A DNA stretch of 64,000 nt from Anaerolineales bacterium (lineage in GTDB: Bacteria; Chloroflexota; Anaerolineae; Anaerolineales; UBA11579): contig JAHCII010000008.1 in assembly GCA_026129305.1 (NCBI GenBank), positions 1 to 64,000 of the forward strand, given 5' to 3'. Below the pieces are notes generated by a model. It was not told where the DNA came from, did no database searches, and was given only the letters and a program-made list of their open reading frames with translations. The first letter of the stretch is position 1, and the number at the start of each line of letters is the position of its first letter. Positions 38,042 to 46,806 of this stretch are shown here, piece after piece. The translations under genes and the position numbers were made by a program.

Positions 38042-38057
38042 CGGGGCTTTTCTTTTT
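38024..38057. terminator. Bidirectional terminator between convergent operons
   Basis: AAAAAGAAAAGCCCC pairs with GGGGCTTTTCTTTTT around a TGAC loop. It contains the stop codon region of the membrane operon (+) and abuts the stop of the VWA gene (-), so it ends both. Confidence 0.9.
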
Positions 38058-39177
38058 ATTTGAACTTGATGCGCACGTTGGCCGGCTTTTTCAAGCGGAC
38101 TTTGCCGCCGCCCCGACCAGAAGCGGGGGCCAGATTGCTGCGCAGGCTGCCCCACAGCATGGGCACAGCCACCAGTGCAACCAGGATGAGGATCACGGTG
38201 GCAAACTGCGCCCAGGAGGCAGGCTGGGCCACCTCTGGCACCAGGCCGCCGGGGTTGTATTGGGTGGCCGTGTCGCTGCCCGCCGCACTGGTCGAGGACG
38301 CCAGCGAAACGCTCAGGGCGCGGTTAACCCCGTCACGCAGAGTGGCCGGCGAAGTGTAGGTGATGGCGTATTCGCTCTGCAGCGCGGTGGCGTAGCTGCT
38401 GTATAGAGTGGTCAGGCTGTCTTCATCTTCGGCGTAGCCATACAGTCCGCCGGCCCTATTGGCCAGGTCCTGCAAGCGCGGCTGATTAATACCAGCCATG
38501 GCGCCGCTCTGTCCCGGTAGGCCGAGGCCGACTGCCGAGATGGAGAGCCCCATGGGACCAATGCGATTGACGACCGTGTCGGTATTGGCCGAGCTGGAGT
38601 TGTCCATGCCATCAGTCAGCACAATGATCGCTTTGCGGCCGCTCTCGGCTTCCAACTGCTCCACGGCTGCCATGAGCGCGTCATACATGGCGGTGTCATC
38701 GCCGGCAGTCAGGCTGTCAACCGCGGCGCGCAGGGCGTCCTGGTCGCTGGTGATCGGCTGCACGGTTTCGATCTGCGTGTTGAAGGCGATCAGGCCCACC
38801 TGGTCACCGGGGCGCATGCGGTCAATGAACTGGTGGGCGGCTGCCTTGGCGGCGTCCAGCTTGCCGGCCGTGTCCATGCTGCCGGAGACGTCCATGACCA
38901 GCATGGTGGTCAGTGCGCCCACATCACCTATGCCTTCAATACGGTCCAGCGGAATGGGTTGGCCATTTTCGGCAAGCTGGATGCGGTTAGGGTCCACTGG
39001 CAGCGGATTGCCGGCCGCGTCCGTGGCGGAGACGTAGACGGTGACGCGCGGGAACTGGCTGGTATCCACCTGGGTGACGCGGATGTTCTCCTCAGCCTGA
39101 GCCAGGGGCGTGAAGGCCGCAGTCCCGAAGAGGGCCAAGACAGCCAAAAGCGTGATGGAGAGGCGTAGTGTCTTCAT
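38056..39177 (-). CDS. Membrane-anchored von Willebrand factor A domain protein
   Basis: The 373-residue protein has a signal peptide (about residues 1-28), a beta-rich section to residue 85, a VWA domain with a complete MIDAS start Asp96-x-Ser98-x-Ser100 (MDVSGSMD), TAGDDTAMYDA and VLTDGMDNS, and a C-terminal membrane helix near residues 330-352 with a basic tail. VWA domains bind partners through a metal ion; here the domain would face outside. It is the last gene of the UBL operon, 3 nt after the FHA gene. Its role in a UBL pathway is unknown, and it could act in envelope assembly. Confidence 0.88.
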   Translation of the reverse strand: MKTLRLSITLLAVLALFGTAAFTPLAQAEENIRVTQVDTSQFPRVTVYVSATDAAGNPLPVDPNRIQLAENGQPIPLDRIEGIGDVGALTTMLVMDVSGSMDTAGKLDAAKAAAHQFIDRMRPGDQVGLIAFNTQIETVQPITSDQDALRAAVDSLTAGDDTAMYDALMAAVEQLEAESGRKAIIVLTDGMDNSSSANTDTVVNRIGPMGLSISAVGLGLPGQSGAMAGINQPRLQDLANRAGGLYGYAEDEDSLTTLYSSYATALQSEYAITYTSPATLRDGVNRALSVSLASSTSAAGSDTATQYNPGGLVPEVAQPASWAQFATVILILVALVAVPMLWGSLRSNLAPASGRGGGKVRLKKPANVRIKFK

Positions 39178-39180
39178 GGG

Positions 39181-40038
39181 TTACCTCTTTTCGTGATAGA
39201 CCATTTGGGTATTGCCAATCCGAATGGCCTGTTCGTCTTTTAGATTGGCAACTTCGATCCGGCGGTTGTTGATAAAAGTGCCCTGACTGCTCATATCCTT
39301 GAGCGTCATGTGTGTGTCTGCCCCTTTGAGCAGAGCATGTTGCGGGGCAATATCTGGATCAGGCAGGACGATGTCTGCCTTGAGCGCATCTGAGCCGATA
39401 TAGGCCGAAGGCCCATTGGCGTGGATGAACTTGTCCAGCACGAATTCCGTGCCCTTCATCTTGCCCGTGACCACTTCCAGCCAGGCTTTGGAGAGCAGCA
39501 GCACGATCAGGGCAATGAAGGCGCCCACTGCCGCGCCGAGCAGGCCCAAGCCAGCGGCCTTGCCCATCAACGGATCGGCAAAGCGCTGGCGGGCGAACTC
39601 CAGCAAAAAGCCGCCGACCGCTCCGCCCAGCAGGCCGCCCAGGACCGGCTTCCACAGCTGGGAACCGCTGCTGAAGCCCAAGCCGGCGCCGATGAAGGCG
39701 CCGAAGATGGCCCAACCCAGCGCACGGGTCCAGGCTTCGCCGCCCAGGCTTTGGAAGGCATATTCGGCCAGCGGCAGCCCGACGGCGCCGCCCAACGCGC
39801 CAAGCAGCCCGCTGATCAGGCCGGCTCGCAGGCCGTAGAGCGGGCTGCGGGCGGCCAGGCCCTCACTGAGGCCGATCAGGGCGCCGATGCACAGGCCAAT
39901 CAGCGCCCCAACGATCACTTCGCTGAGATACAGGTTCTGCACGAACGAGAGTCCGAGCAGATTGCTGGCCTGCCAGCCGATCAGGCCGCCTATGGCGCCC
40001 AAAAGGCTGTAGTAATACAGTCGGGTGTAGCGGTTCAT
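39181..40038 (-). CDS. Membrane protein with a C-terminal FHA domain
   Basis: The 285-residue protein has a Gly/Ala-rich membrane part of about six segments (residues 8-185) and a cytoplasmic FHA domain at about 205-283 with YIGSDALKADIVLPDPDIAP, QHALLKG and DMSSQGTFINNRRI. FHA domains bind phosphothreonine; the usual Arg of the GR motif is Ser here and the SRxH motif reads APQH, so phosphopeptide binding may be altered. It overlaps the JAMM gene by 4 nt. Expected role is recruiting a phosphorylated partner to the membrane. Confidence 0.85.
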   Translation of the reverse strand: MNRYTRLYYYSLLGAIGGLIGWQASNLLGLSFVQNLYLSEVIVGALIGLCIGALIGLSEGLAARSPLYGLRAGLISGLLGALGGAVGLPLAEYAFQSLGGEAWTRALGWAIFGAFIGAGLGFSSGSQLWKPVLGGLLGGAVGGFLLEFARQRFADPLMGKAAGLGLLGAAVGAFIALIVLLLSKAWLEVVTGKMKGTEFVLDKFIHANGPSAYIGSDALKADIVLPDPDIAPQHALLKGADTHMTLKDMSSQGTFINNRRIEVANLKDEQAIRIGNTQMVYHEKR

Positions 40039-40703
40039 TCTTCTGCCTCCTGAGCGGCCTTGGTTTGGCCTGTGTCTGAAGCCGGTGGCTGGTGTAGATT
40101 CTTCCAGTCCACCACCGGGTGGGACTTGCGGTTAAAGAGCTCGTAAAAACCATAGCCTTGCTGGGCATTCAAGTTGCCCTGTTTGTCTCGAATAAAGAAG
40201 CCCGCCGTGTGGCTGTGTGGTTCGACCACCAGCGCCACCTGCCAGCCATGCGGGAAAAAGTGCCGATGCAGCCAAAGGTCGTAGCCGGAGAGGAAGACGC
40301 TCATGCGCGGATGGGTGTGGTACCAGCCCACAATATGCTTGTTAGCGTAGCGCTCCTCCAAGGCGGCCAGCATGGCCACCTGGCTGTCGTGTGTAAAAGT
40401 CAGGAAAGTGCTGCCCGAACGCACCTGCTGGGCAGGCAGAAGCGCCTCCACCACCAGGTAGAGCTGGCCTGTGTCCGGATCCTGACAGTGTCGCCCTGCC
40501 AGCCAACCGCCCACTTCGTTATCCAGGTCGGTATTGGCATGGCGGTGGATGGCCTGAAAGGCGGTTTGGGTCATGAAGACCTGAGTGTGCGGAGCAGCAT
40601 CAGGTTCACCCTCGGCCAGCCAGCGCTGAGCGCGTTCCAGCGGCAGGCGCGCCGGACGGGGCGCCTGAGCGGCTACCAGTGGGGAGATGTTGGTGTGGGT
40701 CAT
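40035..40703 (-). CDS. JAMM/MPN+ metallopeptidase, candidate deconjugating isopeptidase
   Basis: The 222-residue protein has the full JAMM zinc motif: Glu63 in DNEVGGWLAG, His129-Thr-His131-Pro in GWYHTHP, then Ser139 and Asp142 in LSGYD. JAMM enzymes (Rpn11, CSN5, bacterial JAB proteins) cleave isopeptide bonds to ubiquitin-like proteins or process their C-termini. A C-terminal tail of about 40 residues follows the domain. I chose the ATG at 40703; an upstream in-frame ATG at 40754 would place the start inside a 13-bp hairpin. Gene order directly links it to the UBL and UBL-E2 genes. Confidence 0.92.
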   Translation of the reverse strand: MTHTNISPLVAAQAPRPARLPLERAQRWLAEGEPDAAPHTQVFMTQTAFQAIHRHANTDLDNEVGGWLAGRHCQDPDTGQLYLVVEALLPAQQVRSGSTFLTFTHDSQVAMLAALEERYANKHIVGWYHTHPRMSVFLSGYDLWLHRHFFPHGWQVALVVEPHSHTAGFFIRDKQGNLNAQQGYGFYELFNRKSHPVVDWKNLHQPPASDTGQTKAAQEAEE

Positions 40704-40718
40704 AAGCAAAGCAGGCGT

Positions 40719-40749
40719 CTGGGCAGGGCTGTTTACCAGCCCTGCCCAG
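40719..40749 (-). promoter_or_regulatory. Intercistronic hairpin between the UBL and JAMM genes
   Basis: CTGGGCAGGGCTG (40719-40731) pairs perfectly with CAGCCCTGCCCAG (40737-40749), 5-nt loop, starting 9 nt after the UBL stop on the minus strand. There is no T-tract, so it fits mRNA stabilisation or partial attenuation better than full termination. Confidence 0.6.
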
Positions 40750-40758
40750 GCCAAGTCA

Positions 40759-41025
40759 TTACCCGGCGGTGACGTCGGCGGTCATGATCAGCCGGTCTTC
40801 GGCGGGGATGCCGGCGCCAGACAGGGTTTCCTGGTCTTTCAGCTCGCGGCCCAGGGCCTTGCTGTCCAGGCGGTAGCCCATCGGGCGGCCGTCCGGGCCG
40901 GTGGTGGGCAGTTCCAGCGAGGTGGCCAATTCCGGGATGAGGTCCTTGACCTCCACGTCATCGGGCACATCGGCGGAACGGCTGCCCCCCGAGGGCAGTA
41001 CTACGGTTACAGGGATCTCTGCCAT
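40759..41025 (-). CDS. Stand-alone ubiquitin-like protein
   Basis: The 88-residue protein reads as a beta-grasp ubiquitin-like domain of the YukD/EsaB-related type: strand PVTVVLPSGGSRSADVP, helix EVKDLIPELATSLEL, then YRLDSKALGRELKDQETLSG and AEDRLIMTADVTAG. It ends exactly at Ala87-Gly88, giving an exposed C-terminal glycine suitable for adenylation. The fused UBL of the upstream gene is nearly identical over residues 40-88, but continues past the same TAG. AAAGGAGTTAGAC precedes the ATG. It is the likely modifier of the system; the single rather than double terminal Gly is noted. Confidence 0.9.
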   Translation of the reverse strand: MAEIPVTVVLPSGGSRSADVPDDVEVKDLIPELATSLELPTTGPDGRPMGYRLDSKALGRELKDQETLSGAGIPAEDRLIMTADVTAG

Positions 41026-41082: not shown

Positions 41083-41922
41083 CTATTTGAGGCGAATGCG
41101 CGGCTTGGTTTTGGGTTTGTCCTTGATGCGGATGCGCTCCGGGCGCAGCAACTCGCGCGCATCCACCGGGAAGGCGCGTGGGTTGCGGCGCCGGTATTCC
41201 CGGCTCCAGCGGGCGGCTTCCGGATCCCAGGGGAATGGCGGCTTGGTGGGATCGTCGTGGAAGTTCTTGTACTGCACCATCTCCCCAATCATCAGCACCA
41301 GGCGGTCCAGCGAGCGGCTGGCCGTCCACCAGGCAGCGTCCACACAGACCGTGCCGTTGAGGTGGTTAATGTTGGGATGCCAGACCGGGGTCAGCCACTT
41401 CATGCCGGGCCAACGCTGGGGGTATTGATTGTGCAGATAAATCTCCACCTGGTGGCGTTCGCCAAACTTGGGTGTTCCGGAGCGATCGACGCCCACGATG
41501 CCTTTGCAGGTGTAGGTGACGATGTACTTTTCCGGGGGCAGGCCGGGGCGCTCGGAATGCGCCTTGAAGTCGATAAAGTCGCTCTGGGCCGCCAGTTCCT
41601 GCATACGGGTGTGGTCGGCTTTCAGGCGGCGCAAGCGCGGGCTTTCGGTGCCGACCGCGCCGGCGGTGATGTCGGCGGTCAGGATCAGGCGATCGTCGGC
41701 AGGCACGCCGGCAGAAGCCAGGGTCTCGTCCTCCTTCAGTTCACGGCCCAGGGCCTTGCTGTCCAGACGGTAACCCATCGGGCGGCCGTCTGGCCCCACG
41801 GTGGGCAGCTCCAGCAGCGAAGCCAGCTCGGTGACCAGGTCACGGATGGGGATGTCGTCCGGCATTTCGGCCTTGCGTGCCCCACCACTGGGCATGATGA
41901 TCGTGATTTCGGTTTCAGCCAT
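41083..41922 (-). CDS. UBL-E2 fusion: ubiquitin-like domain joined to a UBC conjugating domain
   Basis: The 279-residue protein has a UBL at residues 1-87, a paralogue of the next gene (GPDGRPMGYRLDSKALGREL is identical), and a UBC/E2 domain at about 92-235. E2 hallmarks are YPQRWPGMKWLTPVWHPNIN, the HPN motif at 182-184, active-site Cys193 in NGTVCVDAAWW, and the following SLDRLVLMIGEMVQ helix. A basic tail rich in Arg and Lys covers 236-279. It would accept the UBL from the E1 on Cys193. The start at 41922 is preceded by TAGGAGATCTT. The fused UBL cannot be conjugated through its TAG unless cleaved there, so it may serve as a docking or regulatory domain. Confidence 0.93.
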   Translation of the reverse strand: MAETEITIIMPSGGARKAEMPDDIPIRDLVTELASLLELPTVGPDGRPMGYRLDSKALGRELKEDETLASAGVPADDRLILTADITAGAVGTESPRLRRLKADHTRMQELAAQSDFIDFKAHSERPGLPPEKYIVTYTCKGIVGVDRSGTPKFGERHQVEIYLHNQYPQRWPGMKWLTPVWHPNINHLNGTVCVDAAWWTASRSLDRLVLMIGEMVQYKNFHDDPTKPPFPWDPEAARWSREYRRRNPRAFPVDARELLRPERIRIKDKPKTKPRIRLK

Positions 41923-41935
41923 AAGATCTCCTAAA

Positions 41936-42820
41936 TTACTCTGCGTATTGATGCGGCACCTGGCAAACACCAGTGATCTCCCAGCAATCGCGGTGGTGCC
42001 AGGTTTTGCACACTTTGCAAATCTGCACGCCGCGCGGGTCTTTTTTGGTGACTTCTTCCAAACAGTACGGGCAGACATGGGTCTCCGCACTGGAGAAATG
42101 CACAGCGGTCCGGCGGCCGCGCCGGATGCGCTTAGGGGCCGCCGGGGCGGCGATGCGCTGGCGGGGTTGGCGCAAGCTGGTACCGCGGCGCACACGGCGG
42201 CCCGGCCACAGGCTGACCAAACTGGTCTTGACGCGCCCGCTCCAATTGGCGATGGAAGTGCGGATGGTGGGCCGGCGGGCTGGGCGCGCGGCGCGCACAC
42301 GCGGCCGGGGCGCAGGCGAGACACTGATGGGCGTCACCGGCGCCGCCAGCTCCAGCGAAGCCGCCGGGCGCGGCTCCACCAGGATCTCAGTGCGCCGCCG
42401 GGCAAAGGCGCCCAGCGCCAGCCAGGCCGCCAGGCTGCTGGTGAGCAGAGCCAGCCCGTTCTGCTCGAAAGTGATGTGAGCGAATTGGTGCAAGGGATCA
42501 ATGCCAATAAAGCCGCGGCTGGCCTCATTCATCAAGCCCAGCCCCAGGCAAATGGCCAGCCCAGCGGTGGAGAGGCGCAGGGCATAGCTGCGCCCCGCCA
42601 ACAGACGCCGAGCACTGAATCCCGCCACCAAGCCCACCGAGCCCAGCGCGGCATATTTCATGGCTGTCAGGGAAACCTGTAACTCCAACGAAAAGAGCAG
42701 CAGCAAAGCCAGGGCGGTGACGGTCGTGATGAGCGTTACCAGGACGACCTGTTCCAGCAGGTGACCGAAGGTGCTGGGGGAGGAATTCATGCGCGGCATT
42801 GGAATGACATTCGTGGCCAT
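41936..42820 (-). CDS. Membrane protein with a C-terminal RING-like zinc finger, candidate E3
   Basis: The 294-residue protein has membrane segments at about residues 22-48, 53-72, 82-97 and 120-140, then a long Arg/Pro-rich linker, and a C-terminal treble-clef finger: Cys250-x2-Cys253, Cys268-x2-Cys271-x4-His276-x2-Cys279, Cys286 and His290. The HHRDCW core with a following GxC resembles prokaryotic RING families described beside bacterial ubiquitin-type genes. As a membrane-anchored RING it would bring the E2 to envelope substrates. It starts one base after the E1 stop. The E3 role is inferred from fold and context; the finger could also only bind the E2 or substrate. Confidence 0.85.
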   Translation of the reverse strand: MATNVIPMPRMNSSPSTFGHLLEQVVLVTLITTVTALALLLLFSLELQVSLTAMKYAALGSVGLVAGFSARRLLAGRSYALRLSTAGLAICLGLGLMNEASRGFIGIDPLHQFAHITFEQNGLALLTSSLAAWLALGAFARRRTEILVEPRPAASLELAAPVTPISVSPAPRPRVRAARPARRPTIRTSIANWSGRVKTSLVSLWPGRRVRRGTSLRQPRQRIAAPAAPKRIRRGRRTAVHFSSAETHVCPYCLEEVTKKDPRGVQICKVCKTWHHRDCWEITGVCQVPHQYAE

Positions 42821-42821
42821 A

Positions 42822-44453
42822 TCAATCCATCAGATGGATGCGCGCCGCAGCCGTGTCCCCAGCTTCGTTGACCGGCTCGCCCAGGCGTACACGCGTTTCC
42901 GGCGAGGGTGTCGGCACCGCCTCGGCAAAATCATTGAAGTGCAGCGCCTTATGCAGGTCGCCGCTGAGTTCGTAGAAGCGAAAGTCAAGGCCGTTGGTGG
43001 CGCGCAGCACATGCAGCGGTGGGACGCCGACACTGGCCAGGCTGCGATCAAGGAAATCTTCATCACCGCGGATGGTGTGGGTCATGTTGACCTCACGCAT
43101 TTCGCCACAGGTGGGGCAATGCCCAGCCTCAAAGGACACGTCGGACATGGGCTTGAGCACTCGTTCAGAGGTATTGCAAGCCATGCAATTCAGCGAGAGC
43201 ACCAGCTCCTCATCCAACTCCAGCACAGCGTCCTGGCCCAGATCAGCAAAGACCACATCCAGCATCTCGCCCAGCGTGGTGCTCTCGGCGCGCAGCGGCG
43301 TCTCGGTGATCTCGCCGTAGATCCAATGGCTCTCGCAGTCTTCCTCGGCCAGATAGGCCGTGGTGTGCATGTGATTGGTGTAGCCGTTGAAGTGGGTGAC
43401 TTTGCCCGGCTCCACCGGCATGCTGTGGATCAGCTTGAGCGCCTCCTGCGACTGCATGGCGCCGATGATGGAAGCAATGGTGGGCGTGGTGGGCACTTTG
43501 CCCAGCAAAATGTTCTGGCGGGCCAGCAGCGGACAGGAGTAGCGCAGGGCCAGGTCGCGGCGGGCTTGCTCGGTGAGCGTGCATTCGAAGCAGGCGCCGT
43601 CGCCGGGGACAAACACGCGCACCAAGCCGAGCAATTCCTGAATGGCGCCATCCACCCAGGGCTTGTTCATCCAATAGGCAAAGCGATTGACCGCCAGGCG
43701 CGCCTCACGATTGTCAAGGCAGCCGATGATGACGTCCATGCGGCGGAAGACGCCCAGACCAATGTCATGCGTGATATCGCCGTGCAGGTATTGCACTTTT
43801 ACGTCGGGGTTGATCTCTTTGGCGCGGGCGGCAGCCAACTGGGCTTTCTCCCGCCCGGAATCTTTCTCGCGGAACAGGATCGAGCGGCTGAGGTTGGCCA
43901 GTTCGACATTGTCAAAATCGACCACGTAGATGTGGCCGATGCCCATCAGGGTCAGGTTCTTGATCACCTCGTTGCCCAAGGCGCCTGCCCCCACCACCAT
44001 CACCCTGGCGTCGCGCACTTTGTCGCGTTCCCACCAGGAGATGAAGTCGAAAGTTCCGAGACGGTCTTTCTTGAGGTTGGGGATGTGCAGCGGCTTCTCT
44101 TTGGCGACGGGCAGGCGCTGTGGCCCGGCCGGCGCGGCGGCAGGTTTGCGCCGCGCCGGTTTGTCCGCGGCGGGCGGCGCCAGGCGGGCGGCCAACTTGC
44201 GAGCTTTGGCCGCCTGCTGCGCGGATAAGGCGTCCACCAGCCAGCCAACCCCTTGGTGCGCTTCGATCAGCCCGGCCTCAGCCAGGATCTGCAACCCTTC
44301 GCGCAGCGAGGAGCGGCTGACGCCGAGGTCCTTGATGAGGTCACGCTCCGGCGGCAGGTAGGCGCCGGGCAGGTAGTCTTTTTCCAGCAGGGCGGCGGCC
44401 AGTTTGCCGGCCACCAGCTCGGGGATGCTGCTTCTGGGGATGGCGTTGCTCAT
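42822..44453 (-). CDS. E1-like (ThiF) activating enzyme with an N-terminal GntR/FadR DNA-binding domain
   Basis: The 543-residue protein has three parts. Residues 8-75 are a FadR-subfamily winged helix (LPPERDLIKDLGVSRSSLRE, then AHQGVGWLVD). Residues 135-365 are an E1/ThiF domain with nucleotide-binding VVGAGALG at 154-160, the acidic DFDNVELANLSRSILF with Arg190, a CxxC at Cys288/Cys291, candidate catalytic Cys307 in YSCPLLARQN, and PTTPTIASIIGAMQSQEALK at 321-340. Residues 415-455 hold a zinc ribbon (Cys423, 426, 446, 449). It should adenylate the UBL C-terminus and hand it to Cys193 of the E2. ATG 44453 has GGAGAGAG upstream. A FadR-type palindrome lies 29 nt before the ATG, suggesting autoregulation. 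Confidence 0.92.
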   Translation of the reverse strand: MSNAIPRSSIPELVAGKLAAALLEKDYLPGAYLPPERDLIKDLGVSRSSLREGLQILAEAGLIEAHQGVGWLVDALSAQQAAKARKLAARLAPPAADKPARRKPAAAPAGPQRLPVAKEKPLHIPNLKKDRLGTFDFISWWERDKVRDARVMVVGAGALGNEVIKNLTLMGIGHIYVVDFDNVELANLSRSILFREKDSGREKAQLAAARAKEINPDVKVQYLHGDITHDIGLGVFRRMDVIIGCLDNREARLAVNRFAYWMNKPWVDGAIQELLGLVRVFVPGDGACFECTLTEQARRDLALRYSCPLLARQNILLGKVPTTPTIASIIGAMQSQEALKLIHSMPVEPGKVTHFNGYTNHMHTTAYLAEEDCESHWIYGEITETPLRAESTTLGEMLDVVFADLGQDAVLELDEELVLSLNCMACNTSERVLKPMSDVSFEAGHCPTCGEMREVNMTHTIRGDEDFLDRSLASVGVPPLHVLRATNGLDFRFYELSGDLHKALHFNDFAEAVPTPSPETRVRLGEPVNEAGDTAAARIHLMD

Positions 44454-44481
44454 CAGCGGTCTCTCTCCAAAGGCAGTGGTC

Positions 44482-44498
44482 TGCTGGTCAGACCAGCA
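44482..44498 (-). promoter_or_regulatory. Predicted FadR/GntR-type operator of the UBL operon
   Basis: TGCTGGTCAGACCAGCA is a perfect 17-nt palindrome centred on 44490. The TGGTCnGACCA core is the classic operator pattern of FadR-subfamily GntR proteins. It lies in the leader of the gene that itself encodes a FadR-type winged helix. No second copy was noticed in the window. Confidence 0.75.
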
Positions 44499-44604
44499 TT
44501 CCATTGCGCTGGCGAGGTGAACGGGAGACGAGCGAAAAGTGCTACGCCACTAAATTTTTCTCATATTCTAAGCACGGAACGCGTGGGAAGCCCGACAACC
44601 CCTG

Positions 44605-44622: not shown

Positions 44623-44698
<76 letters not shown>

Positions 44699-44749: not shown

Positions 44750-45202
44750 TTAGACGTTGGCGGGGCGGATGCCGCGGTAGACCTGACGGCCGGAGAGTGT
44801 ACGCAGGATGGTTTGCGCCGGGCGGCCCAGGTCTGCAGCCAGCTGCTCCGCAGTCAGGGGCTGGTTGCCGTTTTTGAGAAAGGAGCGGAAGATCGACTCG
44901 ATCAGCGAGGAACCGCCCTGCTCATCGTTGGCGCCGTAGTGGGAGCTGAGCAGGTATTGCAGCGCGTCGATCTGGGTAACCTGGGCCGTTTGCGGGTCCA
45001 CCCGGTCAATCGTGTCGTCCAGGTTGATCCGGCCCACACTGGCCTGCTGCTCTTCACTGAGCAGGCCGTACAGAAAAACCTGCCACTCCTGGTCGTTCTG
45101 CCGCCACCAGGAGAAGTCGATATGAAAGGGCGTGTCCAGCGTAGGGCGAATAAGGCTGGAACGCAGGATTTCGTTCTCTTGAGGTTCGGAGTTCTCGCTC
45201 AT
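44750..45202 (-). CDS. Hypothetical protein, 150 aa, with a helix-turn-helix-like C-terminus
   Basis: I do not recognise this 150-residue acidic protein. The N-terminal half has FHIDFSWWRQNDQEWQVFLYG, and the C-terminus QPLTAEQLAADLGRPAQTIL reads like a small winged-helix segment ending in RGIRPANV. It overlaps the larger upstream gene by 4 nt, so the two form a unit. It points toward the UBL operon but is separated from it by a terminator and the tRNA, so joint transcription is unlikely. Confidence 0.7.
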   Translation of the reverse strand: MSENSEPQENEILRSSLIRPTLDTPFHIDFSWWRQNDQEWQVFLYGLLSEEQQASVGRINLDDTIDRVDPQTAQVTQIDALQYLLSSHYGANDEQGGSSLIESIFRSFLKNGNQPLTAEQLAADLGRPAQTILRTLSGRQVYRGIRPANV

Positions 45203-46806
45203 GCGTCTGCGATCTGCTCGGCCAGGCGGAAGTGTAAATGGCCGACGTGTTCAAATTGAGGGCGAGTGGCCAGCAGGGCCAGCAGTGGGGCCGGCGGGCA
45301 GCGCAAGACCAGGTTGAGGGCCGAATAAAGCTCCTCGGCATGCACATGGTTCTGTGGATTGAGCTTGGCCAGTTCCCGCAGGGTCGTACCCACGATCTGG
45401 GTGAAGTTGCCGACCGGCTTGCCAATGCGGCGTTCCCAGACCGCATCCAGCGGGCTGAGATCAGCCGGCAGGTGCATCATCATACGCTCATTAAAGGATG
45501 CAGCCACGGTCTGCTTTAGCATGGCATACACCACGCCGCCATCGGCGCCTACCAAAGCCGTGCGCACCCACTCTTTGCTGGAACGGTGGGCATCCACGGA
45601 GATAAGCACTTCACCCGGCTGCTGGCTGTGGCTGAGCTGCACGAAGGCGCCGGGCATCAGGCCGCGGTCCAAGTACCACTGGCGCAACCCAACGATGTAC
45701 CCGTGCTCGCGGTCCACCCAACCTTCGAAACGCGCCTCGCTGGAAGGGTCAACAAAGTCGAAGCGTACGCGGGGAGATTCGTAAGCGCTGGGGAAGAAGG
45801 CCGCCAGGCGCCGGGTCAGCGGCAGGCTGCCCACCCGCCAGTGCGGGTAGAGCAGGGCCACCTGGATGTGATCACCCTCCGCTTGGGGTTGAAATTCGGC
45901 GGGGGTCAGCTCATCATCAAACTGGGTTTCGAAGGCCAGCATATCTTCAGTCAATGCGGCGCGGTCGTGCTCCAGGGTTTCATAGCTGAGGTGGAGAGGA
46001 GTACGCTGCAGCGGCTCCGGCTCCAAACGTCGCAGGAACCAGGCGACCTCGCCCGAAGGTCCGACTTCGTCGAAGCGCGGGTCTTCTTGCAGAGCAAGGT
46101 CAAGAGAGAATTCGGCCAGCCGCGGATTGACACCGCTGGGCAGTTCGACCTCACCCAACAGCTGGGCGGTGAGCAGCGGACCGCCGGAAGCCATGTCCAT
46201 CAGCGCTTCGGCAACGTTAAGCTGGCCGGAATCGACATCCAGGATCAGGGCTTTGGGGAACCAGCGGCCGGCGATATAAACGAAGTCCGGGCTCAGGCGC
46301 AGCGCCTCTACCAATTGGGGCGCGATGCGGGCGGCATGATCACTGACCGCCGCGGCCAGCACATCTTCGGGGGTTTCTTCCACTTCAGGCGGATGGTTGA
46401 GGACGTGCTCCTCCAGCCCGGCGGCGTACTCGCGGCTGGCCCCATCGGCAAACTCCACCGTGATGACATCAAAGACGGCTTCGCCCAAGGTCCTGGCCGG
46501 GCGCACGGCGCTGACGCGGCCCGCCTGCCAGCCCAGGGCGGAGAAGCTGAGCTGGTCACCGACCTGATAACGCTGCTTGGGCAGGTAGGGCTTGGCCGCG
46601 GCCTGTTGGGCGGCCACATGCTCCTGCTGCTGTTGCATGCGATGGCGAATGAGTTGGGCGGCCAGCGCTTCTGGGCCGAGGGGGGTCTCTTCTTCCAGCA
46701 GGTATGCGGAGAGAAATTCGAGATCGGCTGACCGAATGCTGAATTGCTCCCAATCCATCTCAAGGGCGGGCTGCTGGGCAGACAAAGTAGAAGACTGGCT
46801 GCTCAT
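45199..46806 (-). CDS. Hypothetical protein, 535 aa
   Basis: The 535-residue protein is acidic and soluble, with no signal peptide. The N-terminus has a helical part (DLEFLSAYLLEEETPLGPEA), then a Tudor/KOW-like small barrel at about residues 75-140 (YLPKQRYQVGDQLSFSALGW; DVITVEFADGASREYAAGLE). The middle and C-terminus show no motif I know. Similar layouts may occur in other Chloroflexota, but I cannot check. It is followed by the 150-residue protein with a 4-nt overlap. Its proximity to the UBL operon makes it a possible partner or target. Confidence 0.7.
   Translation of the reverse strand: MSSQSSTLSAQQPALEMDWEQFSIRSADLEFLSAYLLEEETPLGPEALAAQLIRHRMQQQQEHVAAQQAAAKPYLPKQRYQVGDQLSFSALGWQAGRVSAVRPARTLGEAVFDVITVEFADGASREYAAGLEEHVLNHPPEVEETPEDVLAAAVSDHAARIAPQLVEALRLSPDFVYIAGRWFPKALILDVDSGQLNVAEALMDMASGGPLLTAQLLGEVELPSGVNPRLAEFSLDLALQEDPRFDEVGPSGEVAWFLRRLEPEPLQRTPLHLSYETLEHDRAALTEDMLAFETQFDDELTPAEFQPQAEGDHIQVALLYPHWRVGSLPLTRRLAAFFPSAYESPRVRFDFVDPSSEARFEGWVDREHGYIVGLRQWYLDRGLMPGAFVQLSHSQQPGEVLISVDAHRSSKEWVRTALVGADGGVVYAMLKQTVAASFNERMMMHLPADLSPLDAVWERRIGKPVGNFTQIVGTTLRELAKLNPQNHVHAEELYSALNLVLRCPPAPLLALLATRPQFEHVGHLHFRLAEQIADA

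Follow-up and report, generated by a model that had tools for sequence, protein, structure and literature searches.

The window (the whole 64,000-nt stretch of Anaerolineales DNA that was analysed) contains an operon for ubiquitin-like (Ubl) protein conjugation, the first gene of which encodes an E1 enzyme fused to a FadR-type GntR winged helix. Comparison of this gene and its leader with their orthologs gives us high confidence that the E1 is at once an enzyme and a transcription factor, repressing its own operon via an operator at the E1 promoter (negative autoregulation). In other words, the E1 very probably controls the genes of its own pathway, and most likely shuts them down.

Domain composition of the E1 and its genomic context

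The operon consists of seven genes on the minus strand, in the order E1-RING-E2-Ubl-JAB-FHA-VWA, which is conserved in the orthologs. The GntR-E1 gene (P0001, 42822..44453) encodes a protein of 543 amino acids, comprised of the winged helix, a linker and a ThiF domain. It is followed by the genes for a protein with a C-terminal prokaryotic RING, a predicted E3 (41936..42820; Prok-RING_1, E 5.4e-6, slightly under the family cut-off, but syntenic in the orthologs), a fusion of a YukD-like Ubl with a UBC domain, or Ubl-E2 (41083..41922; Pfam YukD and UQ_con), a stand-alone YukD-like Ubl (40759..41025; identified by Pfam), a JAB isopeptidase (40035..40754, the start codon being uncertain; Prok-JAB, E 4.9e-11), an FHA-domain protein (39181..40038; FHA, E 4.7e-12), which has a hydrophobic N-terminal half and is probably membrane-bound, and a VWA-domain protein (38056..39177; VWA_2, E 6.3e-21). 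Among the PADLOC models, the E1 matches BilD weakly (5.4e-6), as well as the generic E1-E2 models, and the JAB protein matches the generic JAB models, while the RING, E2, Ubl, FHA and VWA proteins of the operon have no match in this set; we do not assign the operon to the Bil/Bub systems.

Upstream of the operon, on the opposite strand, there is a tRNA-Arg gene (44623-44698). Still further upstream (44750-46806) there are two genes encoding proteins of 150 aa (weak HTH match) and 535 aa (no Pfam match); among the relatives, only the closest ones, L035 and L036, have them near the operon.

The start of the E1 gene was put at position 44453, since the close orthologs L035 and L036 begin at the equivalent of this position. 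For the same reason a longer reading frame starting from 44504, in which the palindrome described below would be intragenic, was rejected.

The first-pass annotation had assigned the N-terminus of the E1 to FadR-type winged helices, and this assignment is confirmed by Pfam (GntR, PF00392, residues 14-73, corresponding to 44235..44414 on the minus strand; E 5.6e-15, 55.2 bits with the cut-off of 27) and by the nearest solved structures in PDB, which are those of the FadR-type proteins Rv0494, PdhR and FadR. After the winged helix come a variable linker (about residues 75-124), the ThiF domain (PF00899, residues 140-373, E 2.9e-55), for which the nearest solved structures in PDB are those of E1s, and a C-terminal CxxC...CxxC region (residues 423-449). 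The all-helical effector-binding domain that forms the C-terminal part of FadR-subfamily proteins is absent, its place being occupied by the ThiF/E1 domain, and therefore we class with FadR the DNA-binding domain alone and do not consider the whole protein a FadR regulator.

The ATP-site residues (GxGALGN, DFD, R190, K203 and D247) are conserved among the E1s, and they are kept, along with Cys307 and the C-terminal cysteines, both in the E1s with the GntR domain and in those without it. Cys307, judging by its position, is the candidate catalytic cysteine. The last residue of the stand-alone Ubl is an exposed glycine (TADVTAG), the terminal TAG being present in all intact stand-alone copies except the one in L060, and the E2 cysteine of the Ubl-E2 fusion is conserved as well. 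Given the conservation of the ATP-site residues, Cys307, the Ubl glycine and the E2 cysteine, the protein looks like a working E1 that additionally bears a DNA-binding domain.

In the winged helix, residues E36, R37, R47, R51 and L54 are invariant in 83 of the 83 GntR-E1s. Arginines R37, R47 and R51 correspond to the contact arginines of FadR (R35, R45 and R49 in its numbering). A lack of recognition-helix residues would have been a reason to doubt that the domain binds DNA, and the check shows them to be present and invariant in the entire set of 83 proteins.

A winged helix in this place might also bind a peptide or the Ubl instead of DNA, as in MccB, a ThiF-type enzyme with an N-terminal RRE, where a winged-helix-like peptide-binding domain is located ahead of the ThiF domain, providing a non-DNA precedent for the same layout. 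For the GntR-E1 this is highly improbable, since by sequence the domain is similar to GntR regulators, retains the invariant DNA-contact arginines, and is accompanied by an operator.

The operator and its association with the GntR domain

A perfect palindrome with the TGGTCnGACCA core had been reported in front of the E1 gene, and it is indeed there: TGCTGGTCAGACCAGCA (44482-44498) comprises the operator core and arms with zero mismatches and is located 28 nt 5' of the E1 start codon. By itself such a palindrome is weak evidence, because the whole window contains five perfect odd-centred palindromes with arms of length at least 8. Still, it is above chance, as the TGGTCnGACCA core occurs in the 2.1-Mb window genome a single time, in the E1 leader, and as the operator is conserved across the orthologous leaders, while the adjoining DNA is not.

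Orthologs were searched for in 396 genomes of the window's class and in a genome collection, which yielded E1s both with and without the GntR domain. Alignment of the first 35 GntR-E1 leaders, from which the operator was derived, produced a sharp footprint TGGTATnnTGGTCTGACCAnnATACCA with a nearly invariant core and the background level of conservation outside. Later 66 further loci were added, some of them repeating genomes of the first set, giving in total 83 distinct GntR-E1 leaders, at least 46 of which had not been used in deriving the motif. The footprint of the 35 leaders, and then of 80 distinct ortholog leaders, corresponds in the window to an extended 27-bp operator TGGAATGC-TGGTCTGACCA-GCAGACCA (44477..44503, minus strand), the consensus being TGGTATnn-TGGTCTGACCA-nnATACCA. 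The half-sites recur at 8-bp steps on each arm, with the right outer half-site conserved better than the left one, and the letters that do not vary, also those of the outer half-site, are GGT and ACC.

The first-pass annotation implied that leaders of homologous operons should have the palindrome, and this is what their alignment shows. The core matching at 8/10 positions or better within 130 nt is present in 80 of the 83 distinct GntR-E1 leaders versus 3.5% of shuffled leaders, though many of the 83 come from related genomes and hence are not independent; in L179 the site is located farther upstream than 130 nt. In L014 and L051, which together form one clade, the site has the form TGGTAT-N7-ATACCA, and the wing tip of the E1 is AARGTF versus the usual GVGWF. 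The operator is also found in L114, an ortholog that does not belong to the window's class and whose leader is among those that were new after the motif had been fixed. No operator site is present in any of the 13 loci (12 distinct) with GntR-less E1s. Moreover, the operator variant TGGTA is observed only with His67 in the wing (6/6, the proportion with the usual base being 5/74; Fisher p 1.5e-6, uncorrected for phylogeny).

The search of 17 genomes with the 23-bp pattern returned the E1 leaders and otherwise scattered matches with three mismatches. There is essentially one operator site per genome, located at the E1 gene, and a wider regulon, of which this search gave no sign, was rejected.

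FadR-type proteins elsewhere bind TGGTnnnACCA sites, and a site of this type is present at the GntR-E1's own promoter. This could fit a separate FadR-type regulator that binds the palindrome, with the winged helix of the E1 being a leftover or serving some other purpose. We regard such a regulator as very unlikely, given that no further FadR-type protein is encoded in the window genome, which is 93% complete, the other clear GntR proteins there being YtrA- or HutC-like, that the occurrence of the operator follows that of the E1's GntR domain, that operator variants follow changes in the E1 wing, and that the contact residues of the E1s are invariant. Another possible role of the palindrome is that of an RNA hairpin, as in the orthologs it lies in the transcribed 5' leader and could pair. 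However, among the first 35 leaders the pair is lost in nine of the ten with a changed core base and is compensated only in L042, and, moreover, it is GGT and ACC that stay invariant, also in the outer half-site. The hairpin was rejected on these uncompensated changes, and its probability is close to negligible.

The E1 is found in 79 of 400 genomes of the order, with nearly all matches extending into the winged helix, as well as in other families of the class and in one genome outside the class, and hence is not an oddity of a single strain. In the E1 tree the GntR character changes once, with modest support (74/54), which is compatible both with loss of the domain and with its original absence.

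The loci with GntR-less E1s differ in their organization. In L060 (1-9977; the same place as L022), the E1 gene is an internal member, not the head, of a longer gene row; this row, with several large unannotated proteins encoded upstream of the E1, resembles a defence or conflict locus. In L112, where there is no operator, the E1 gene is located after a gene on the opposite strand. L111 and L112 (family f39) contain a related Ubl system without the GntR domain and the operator, consisting of E1, E2, two JAB and RING-like proteins, and many E1 frames of this family are reported with internal stops. Finally, a second E1 copy in one genome (G852:C1:1483732-1484826), 46% identical and matching from residue 122 on, apparently has no GntR domain.

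Promoter geometry and the proposed autoregulation

In most orthologs the operator is preceded by a sigma-70 promoter (TTGACT/TTGACA and TATAAT/TATACT separated by 16-18 nt), and the operator core mostly begins 8-11 nt past the -10 box. The geometry was taken from the orthologs, because no recognisable sigma-70 promoter was found in the window's own E1 leader; the leader of its close relative L035 likewise has no clear one. At this distance from the -10 box the element covers the transcription start and the short leader, where repressors act. Of the earlier claim that the E1 represses the whole operon, autoregulation is supported by the operator at the E1's own promoter, while repression itself is deduced from the operator position.

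The E1 might also bind the operator and activate the operon, or be tethered to DNA so as to modify proteins there, since no computed result fixes the sign of the regulation and the E1 remains a probable enzyme. Both options seem unlikely: the operator is located downstream of the -10 box and over the transcription start, a position typical of repressors, and a site present essentially once per genome is ill-suited to general tethering.

A second inverted repeat, TAGTAC-N4-GTACTA, is situated upstream of the operator core, at a distance of about 52-65 nt, and overlaps the -35 box. It is seen in the leaders of L039, L041, L042, L017, L016, L014 and others (14 of 37 leaders score at least 12/17, versus 1.8% of shuffles), and no good copy is present in the window's own leader. 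This repeat is similar to the LexA box of cyanobacteria, and six genomes of one family (G306:C46, G233:C3, G298:C18, G089:C51, G027:C1 and G327:C3) have the lexA gene about 6-7 kb away from the start of the E1 gene, past the operon and on the other strand. LexA was nevertheless rejected as the factor binding the repeat, as lexA leaders of the same genomes have a different motif, GAACN4GTTC.

Under negative autoregulation by the E1, the ThiF part would activate the YukD-like Ubl for the E2, RING and JAB proteins of the same operon, while the winged helix would repress this operon by binding the dedicated operator that overlaps its transcription start. MoeB and ThiF form homodimers, and an E1 homodimer would present two winged helices. 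Half-sites spaced by 8 bp may load more than one dimer, by analogy with the FadR-type regulator NanR, three dimers of which bind closely spaced GGTATA repeats (PMC8012715). The simplest scheme would be autorepression that depends on concentration and is perhaps lifted once the Ubl or the E2 occupies the E1.

More tentatively, and with somewhat less than even chances, the E1 could be a sensor of its own state, as the first-pass annotation had suggested, its affinity to the operator being set by whether it is free, loaded with the Ubl adenylate, in the thioester form, or engaged with the E2. In that case transcription of the pathway would be set by the flux through it, and the E1 would be a counterpart of BirA in a ubiquitin-type system.

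Comparison with known systems

We know of no E1 enzyme that binds specific DNA, and none is described in the papers searched. An HTH-E1 fusion is not mentioned in the 2006 survey (PMC1779556), and no description of a GntR-E1 fusion was found in the full-text literature searched; the architecture may have been mentioned before, in the surveys of 2009 and 2011 that deal with E1s and RINGs.

The GntR-E1 operon is of the same general kind as the prokaryotic YukD-like Ubl/E2/JAB/RING operons surveyed by Iyer, Burroughs and Aravind. Bub/Bil operons can be under the control of separate regulators, CapW, CapH with CapP, or CapK with CapS (PMC13373217). The common feature is a bacterial Ubl conjugation operon (E1, E2, Ubl and peptidase) with a dedicated transcriptional repressor, predicted in the case of the GntR-E1; the regulators of Bub/Bil operons, however, are encoded by separate genes and answer to DNA damage, whereas in the GntR-E1 operon this role would belong to the E1 itself (PMC13373217).

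With FadR, PdhR, NanR and DgoR the GntR-E1 shares the N-terminal GntR winged helix, the contact residues and the TGGTCnGACCA-type core of the binding site (PMC8012715, PMC12288454). Unlike these regulators, which have a C-terminal effector-binding and oligomerisation domain, the GntR-E1 has a full E1 in its place.

If the autoregulation is confirmed, an E1 that also regulates transcription of the pathway it serves would be a simple means to hold the level of a Ubl system, and possibly also to sense the use of the pathway. The operator would then provide a ready reporter for conditions that switch on this uncharacterised Chloroflexota pathway, a first step to the role of the modifier.

The nearest parallel in logic is BirA, and the GntR-E1 may work like it. 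BirA combines an adenylate-forming ligase with a DNA-binding winged helix and represses the operon of its own pathway. In both cases an enzyme and a DNA-binding domain are joined in one protein with the operator at its own operon, as read for the GntR-E1 from its sequence; the catalytic domains, ThiF/E1 and biotin ligase, are unrelated, the modifier of the GntR-E1 is a protein, and its winged helix is of the GntR type and not of the BirA type. BirA, being the biotin protein ligase and the repressor of the bio operon, and PutA are known as enzyme-repressors, or trigger enzymes (PMC6978683, PMC6391492), and the GntR-E1, if confirmed, would add to them an enzyme of the ubiquitin type.
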